NCBI GenBank assembly: GCA_028683655.1
Contig: JAQUHK010000009.1
Span: 1-32,164 of the forward strand
Direction of reading: 5' to 3'
DNA: 32,164 bases
Source: Alphaproteobacteria bacterium
Lineage (GTDB): Bacteria > Pseudomonadota > Alphaproteobacteria > UBA9219
The notes beneath the pieces were generated by a model. The model did not search any database, was not told the origin of the DNA, and worked only from the letters and a program-made list of their open reading frames with translations. The position numbers and the translations under genes are program-made. Shown here piece by piece: positions 5,441 to 5,726 of the stretch. How positions within the stretch are numbered: the stretch's first letter is position 1; each line of letters starts with the position of its first letter.

Positions 5441-5645
5441 GTGTCGCGGGGTGGAGCAGCCCGCCAGTCCGTAGCCCAACAGGGCTTAGGACGAACAAAA
5501 GAGCTACCGGGATGCGTCCCGATAGCTCAGGCTCAATTCTAGGTGTCGCGGGGTGGAGCAGCCCGCCAGTCCGCAGCCCGATAGGGTTTAGGACAAAAAA
5601 ACAGAGCTACCGGGATGCGTCCCGATAGCTTAGGCTCAATTCTAG
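5441..5645 (+). repeat. Two tandem ~102-bp units derived from tRNA-fMet
   Basis: Units at 5441-5542 and 5543-5645 differ at fewer than ten positions. Each begins with the four bases preceding the tRNA and its first 19 bases. Then comes an insert, then a segment like the tRNA from D stem to anticodon loop (TAGCT(C/T)AGGCTCAAT). The insert sits inside the D loop. It holds hairpin A (GTCC..AGCCC with GGGCT..GGAC, loop AACA; in unit 2 loop GATA with G-T pairs keeping the stem), an A-rich linker and hairpin B (GAGCTACCGGG / CCCGATAGCTC). The bases just before unit 1 (AAGCTCGTAAGCTTATT) may be the decayed end of a third unit. Confidence 0.85.
5501..5515 (+). other. Segment antisense to the initiator tRNA D arm (unit 1; repeated at 5604-5618)
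   Basis: GAGCTACCGGGATGC is the reverse complement of tRNA-fMet 5661-5675 (GCAGCCCGGTAGCTC) at 14 of 15 positions, with the first 11 perfect. Unit 2 carries the identical 15-mer at 5604-5618. In each unit it can instead fold on the nearby direct copy CCCGATAGCTC to form hairpin B. Confidence 0.7.
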
Positions 5646-5649
5646 GTGT

Positions 5650-5726
5650 CGCGGGGTGGAGCAGCCCGGTAGCTCGTCAGGCTCATAACCTGAAGGTCGT
5701 CAGTTCAAATCTGGCCCCCGCAACCA
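5650..5726 (+). tRNA. Initiator tRNA-fMet (anticodon CAT)
   Basis: 77 bases with encoded CCA. The C1-A72 mismatch (CGCGGGG against CCCCGCA) is the hallmark of bacterial initiator tRNA. CAT lies at 5684-5686 in loop CTCATAA. The anticodon stem is TCAGG/CCTGA, so positions 29-31 are AGG with CCU opposite, instead of the standard three G-C pairs. It is preceded directly by two partial tRNA-like repeats and followed after 29 bases by a glycosyltransferase gene. Confidence 0.97.

Follow-up and report, generated by a model that had tools for sequence, protein, structure and literature searches.

Tandem hairpin-bearing copies of the tRNA-fMet 5' end in front of an alphaproteobacterial initiator tRNA gene: a candidate insertion class

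The initiator tRNA locus

The window, i.e., the whole stretch of 32,164 nucleotides analyzed here, carries an intact initiator tRNA-fMet gene preceded by two tandem units of 102 and 103 bp that each begin with a partial copy of that tRNA (Table 1). mltG (YceG) lies upstream of the units, and a glycosyltransferase gene follows the tRNA, which is the one full-length tRNA-fMet found in this 94% complete genome (G000). The earlier note on this DNA had described tandem tRNA-fMet-derived repeats with inserted hairpins that end in the real tRNA, and this anatomy was confirmed. The 23-nt unit start (GTGTCGCGGGGTGGAGCAGCCCG) corresponds to tRNA-fMet positions -4 to +19 and occurs identically three times, i.e., at the head of both units and at 5646. 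Each unit then runs through hairpin A and an A-rich linker to hairpin B. The 5' arm of the latter (GAGCTACCGGGATGC) matches the reverse complement of the real tRNA's D-arm (GCAGCCCGGTAGCTC) at 14 of 15 positions. ARAGORN and Rfam called nothing besides the tRNA-Met(CAT) and no cloverleaf in the units, and neither these nor other insert loci reached the Rfam gathering score. A BLAST search of the units against their own genome returned this locus only, and no second copy with E below about 0.03 was found in G000 by BLAST or by the covariance model described below.

Table 1. Features of the tRNA-fMet locus in the window
Feature	Positions	Strand	Basis or remark
Putative promoter of the tRNA-fMet transcript (CTTGCA, 15 nt, CTATAC)	5367..5393	+	Upstream of the units
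Unit 1	5441-5542		Spacing 102
Unit 1, tRNA-fMet copy (-4..+19)	5441..5463	+	Self-folds as GCGGG/CCCGC using the next C
Unit 1, hairpin A	5467..5492	+	Folding; covariation across genomes
Unit 1, A-rich linker GAACAAAA	5493..5500	+	AAACAAA linker conserved in other genomes
Unit 1, hairpin B	5501..5528	+	5' arm is tRNA D-arm in antisense, spanning the break behind CCCG
Unit 2	5543-5645		Spacing 103
Unit 2, tRNA-fMet copy (-4..+19)	5543..5565	+
Unit 2, hairpin A	5569..5594	+	One G-C to G-U change relative to unit 1
Unit 2, hairpin B and antisense D-arm	5604..5631	+	11-nt match spans the break
Intact initiator tRNA-fMet (CAT)	5650..5726	+	ARAGORN, Rfam

Both window units fold far better than shuffled sequences (z-scores of -4.7 and -3.9 for units 1 and 2, respectively). 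The G-T pairs previously taken as a hint of selection are indeed kept, but by themselves they say little: two C-to-T changes between the units preserve the pairing. Part of the tRNA-like sequence said to resume behind the hairpins in fact forms the 3' side of hairpin B, opposite the antisense D-arm on the 5' side; a 7-nt match, AGGCTCA, is an extra not seen in other units. The putative promoter has counterparts between mltG and tRNA-fMet in another genome of the genus (G002) and, in further genomes, ahead of the units. The units would probably be transcribed as a 5' leader and removed by RNase P. Read on the minus strand, hairpin B and the T-rich stretch behind it (5501-5528 and 5605-5630) fit a simple terminator pattern. 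Elsewhere in the window, minus-strand open reading frames at 22630-25077 and 27075-30158 resemble, by eye, type IV secretion/conjugation ATPases.

Shared build and patchy occurrence of the units

Units directly upstream of tRNA-fMet are scattered patchily over several alphaproteobacterial orders, in roughly two dozen genomes (24 genomes or records, including G431, whose contig ends before any tRNA); many of the genomes compared are MAGs. A pattern consisting of the tRNA 5' copy, a gap, and CTACCGGG matched 5 of 33 genomes of the window's order and its reversed control none, while a variant pattern matched six of these 33, among them four of the five in family f2. A scan of 84,980 species yielded seven loci, all alphaproteobacterial, with tRNA-fMet called directly downstream in six and interrupted by a run of N in the seventh (L043). 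Further cases came from the order of Robiginitomaculum, Sphingomonadaceae, one IMG/VR contig, Novosphingobium resinovorum pSA1, and a Phyllobacterium plasmid. Only G000 and G025 had a unit upstream of tRNA-fMet among 385 genomes drawn evenly from the class.

The earlier note had counted absence from close relatives, together with a lack of transcript signal, against its reading, and such absence is largely seen: patterns found no unit in G001 to G005, the other genomes of the window's genus (two of them only about 80% complete), and in G002 and G005 mltG adjoins tRNA-fMet at the same locus without a unit. Copy number also varies at short range. In genus g10, G024, G028, and G030 share matching upstream sequence and have zero, one, and two units, respectively, in an unrooted comparison that would fit gain as well as loss. 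G026 has three full units and one partial unit, and G417 has at least three identical ones; the collapsed repeat contigs of Novosphingobium G413 yielded no empty paralogues. At one further locus (L090, G576:C14 near 155351), the tRNA-fMet unit contains its hairpin/A-rich part about four times over (GTCCGCGAAGGCGGACAAAATGCAAAA).

The common build runs from the tRNA 5' copy through CC, hairpin A, and an A-rich linker to a reverse-complemented D-arm, which spans the point where the tRNA copy breaks off and usually lies inside hairpin B. Break point and orientation are identical across the fMet cases, and in nearly all of them the copy matches the host's own tRNA at variable sites (GCGGGGTGG, GCGGGATAG, GCGGGATGG, and GCGGGGTAG). 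Directly after the copy, a C replaces the tRNA's G and closes a GCGGG/CCCGC hairpin. The linker, AAACAAA-like in fMet units, leads into GCTACCGGG(C). This piece is the D-arm in antisense, covering the break that follows CCCG, and a compensating 3' arm completes hairpin B. Over 22 units, not all independent, hairpins A and B outperform shuffles with combined Z of -17.9 and -9.7 (for B, against shuffled 3' arms); single-unit fold z-scores outside the window are modest. The sequence of hairpin A varies freely while 98.6% of its cells are paired in a model-fitted alignment, and five of its six pairs change on both sides. This cross-genome covariation is real evidence for structure and upholds the structural constraint suspected before. 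Several genomes of the Robiginitomaculum order have a decayed antisense piece or none, and in N. resinovorum the stems are kept and the loop has drifted away from the tRNA. The units have neither a T-arm nor the 3' strand of the acceptor stem, and those of most genomes have no anticodon arm either, which lends no support to the suggestion of a decoy for tRNA maturation enzymes.

A covariance search had been advised with a model built from the two units; a model made without them recovered both at 45.9 and 42.2 bits (E about 1e-10), compared with 20.7 bits for the tRNA's own 5' end. In the first model (R1) four seed rows were given single padding bases, and the second (R2) was built from unpadded matches. 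R1/R2 matches within the class in G099, G282, G220, G374, G096, G067, and G309, and 19-mer matches in L082, L092, and L093, have no tRNA-fMet and were dismissed as chance. A phage or plasmid origin was likewise rejected. The window units match no plasmid or phage, the strict unit pattern is absent from viral contigs, and the 19-mer retrieved from viral contigs one genuine unit beside tRNA-fMet plus a set of chance matches. The N. resinovorum and Phyllobacterium plasmids carry diverged units because their tRNA-fMet is located there.

Cassettes at other genes

The hairpin/A-rich cassette recurs in tRNA-Ser, era, iscS, purQ, and nagZ of related MAGs of the Robiginitomaculum order (gene names from Pfam, NCBIfam, and ARAGORN), and the covariance model gave many further, weaker matches away from tRNA-fMet in G576, G601, G680, G690, and G521. 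An interspersed repeat off tRNA genes, which the earlier note had listed as a result against its reading, is seen in a few genomes of this order and not in the window's genome. One form has two hairpins, CCC-hairpin-TAATNATAAT-hairpin-GGG, often between inverted repeats; the other is simpler, with an A-rich tail and duplicated flanks. Two-hairpin palindromes of the first form lie at several loci within L121 to L169 in the same five genomes, at least one inside a gene (L129).

At era, iscS, purQ, nagZ, and tRNA-Ser, a truncated copy of the gene start lies upstream and the intact gene downstream. After the hairpin comes a reverse-complement target piece across the break (GCGTTGGG, CGGTCGC, CAGCGGCA, and GCGGGCC in the list of era, iscS, purQ, and nagZ; GTTCGACCACT at tRNA-Ser; CCTCGCGG at a further locus), except at iscS in G690, one of the six non-fMet cases. 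For these six, leaving out tRNA-Ser, antisense sequence across the break gave a Fisher p of 5e-8, with break points chosen after the duplications were seen and in regions picked by the covariance model. The tRNA-Ser contig (L209), excluded from this p, stops one base past the break, and four of the five downstream letters were assumed from other tRNA-Ser genes; only the 5' part of the gene lies within it, named via an identical 22-mer in tRNA-Ser genes of other contigs. Direct repeats at the non-fMet inserts, which were drawn from few, related genomes, vary, most of them being long (about 24-56 bp). At purQ, nagZ, and tRNA-Ser the tail is rich in A or T and not AAACAAA. The window unit and these cassettes may be homologous, to judge from their shared build rather than from alignable hairpin sequence. 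Their bias toward gene starts may reflect survival, since only there would a duplication of ~20-60 bp restore an intact gene. Away from tRNA-fMet, three tandem 50-bp units, each a hairpin with AAACAAAAACCAGC and a palindromic target GCGACGCTACGCGTCGC, sit between two genes in L095 (G178:C73, 1501-1660).

Origin and possible role

We see about an even chance that the units derive from a small hairpin insertion that duplicated the 5' end of its target, was amplified in tandem, and is carried as a pre-tRNA leader without a dedicated role. A cassette (CC/CCC, GC-rich hairpin, and A-rich tail) would enter the 5' part of the initiator tRNA in the D-loop after position 19, leaving upstream a duplicated target 5' part broken at the insertion point, then the cassette, a short reverse-complement target copy across the break, and the intact gene. 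A hairpin-forming strand might be captured at a staggered break, or through template switching; the other strand would then be copied by fold-back and the ends rejoined ahead of the gene start. Slippage between direct repeats would later expand the unit, giving two copies here and anything from 0 to 4 or more in other genomes. The insert would survive in the leader of an essential gene because the intact tRNA remains. Recurrence at a fixed break, patchiness, variation in unit number, the covariation of hairpin A, and the same marks at other genes, including antisense sequence across the break, speak for insertion. Against it, no second copy turned up in G000 at the E limit given above, the non-fMet cases have the restricted origin and differing tails described above, no enzyme was identified, Y1 (HUH) transposases (PF01797) being present in only 5 of 23 genomes and in none of G000, G576, G601, and G690, and the N. 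resinovorum stems outlast similarity to the tRNA, as expected of a useful structure.

The main rival is a functional, cis-acting pre-tRNA-fMet leader RNA in which hairpin B and pairing between the antisense piece and the real D-arm would be mutually exclusive and would tune tRNA maturation, a possibility that we hold to be rather unlikely. The position fits the leader RNA offered in the earlier note as a possibility, since units follow either the putative promoter or 5S rRNA and precede tRNA-fMet; they always lie 5' of the tRNA and are presumably transcribed. In the predicted best fold with a unit, the antisense piece pairs with the tRNA D-arm and the unit's 5' copy takes the acceptor stem, so that native acceptor and D-arm probability falls near 0 in most unit-bearing cases and to 0.2 in the window, versus 0.76 and 0.92, respectively, in unit-less G024. 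The hairpins' advantage over shuffles and the covariation of hairpin A also favor a functional leader. However, the prediction is one of equilibrium and ignores cotranscriptional folding. As the RNA is made, hairpin B would be the first to fold, and the pairing preserved in it may just sequester the antisense piece. The tRNA-fMet of G000 must work despite the predicted misfold, as it seems to be its only fMet gene. Patchy occurrence, with none detected in other genomes of the window's genus, copy numbers from 0 to 4+, decay of the antisense D-arm in several Robiginitomaculum-order genomes, and the antisense feature at unrelated genes all weigh against dedicated regulation.

Two readings fare worse. 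A tandem relic left by unequal exchange or slippage at the tRNA locus, like the repeats beside E. coli tyrT and with no insertion element, would account for the 23-30 bp direct repeats, the variable copy number, and a copy identical to the host's own tRNA. Slippage explains copy number but not the cassette; hairpin A, the linker, and the antisense piece are non-tRNA sequence and are nevertheless shared by unrelated hosts and found at other genes. The plain relic that had been suggested is improbable, and the cassettes at era, iscS, and purQ already speak against it. Still less credible are attachment sites left behind by integrative elements that insert at gene 5' ends and restore them. tRNA genes are the usual targets of such elements, and a truncated 5' copy upstream of an intact gene is the trace that 5'-end integration would be expected to leave. 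dusA-targeting integrases are reported to act at the 5' end of a gene (PMC4482086), but these belong to large integrase-bearing islands as opposed to the 60-bp insert here. Only about 60 bp separates the copies; the inserts examined contain no integrase; phage, plasmid, and viral contigs carry the unit only within a tRNA-fMet locus; and several unrelated targets are hit.

Returning to hairpin insertion, the units might tentatively be assigned to an undescribed bacterial insertion class defined by an A-tailed hairpin, an antisense target copy, and a 5'-end duplication, with the leader maybe recruited as an antisense switch, although we lean against this fuller proposal. Literature searches found no description of such an element. 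If true, essential genes (initiator tRNA, tRNA-Ser, era, iscS, and purQ) would have been hit without being lost. If the rule holds, its signature of hairpin, A-rich tail, antisense target piece, and gene-start duplication would be searchable in any genome and would mark an undescribed insertion or repair process in Alphaproteobacteria. Initiator-tRNA genes, one seemingly the only copy, bear long structured leaders whose predicted folds compete with that of the tRNA, which makes them a case in which to test how essential RNA genes tolerate or exploit inserts.

Among known systems, tandem repeats beside E. coli tyrT (rtT RNA) contain 19 nt of the tRNA and are cotranscribed with it. In the window, too, a tandem unit carries one end of the neighboring tRNA, but the tyrT repeats derive from the 3' end and lie downstream, whereas the window units derive from the 5' end, lie upstream, and add a hairpin cassette and an antisense piece. 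We know of no target 5'-end duplication or antisense piece for CGTC-tagged repeats or Rickettsia palindromic elements. These are small palindromes of alphaproteobacterial hosts with no dedicated transposase known (PMC3733652), in all of which the cassettes resemble them, except that no CGTC tag was recognized here. REP/REPIN sequences with RAYT are small interspersed palindromes, sometimes inside genes (PMC3733652, PMC3116915), as are window-type cassettes, which differ by their long local duplications and antisense target piece. Absence of Y1 transposase from most hosts makes REP/RAYT mobilization unlikely; by eye, no constant GTAG-type tag flanks hairpin A, and the antisense D-arm contains CTAC, complementary to the tRNA's GTAG. 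A classical MITE, with terminal inverted repeats and a short fixed target duplication, was rejected on the variable and mostly long direct repeats. Separately, an apparent tRNA 3'-end piece (TGGTGGAGCCGG) appears twice among GC-rich hairpins near 1560-1670 of L185 (G096:C81), possibly a tyrT-like 3' repeat.
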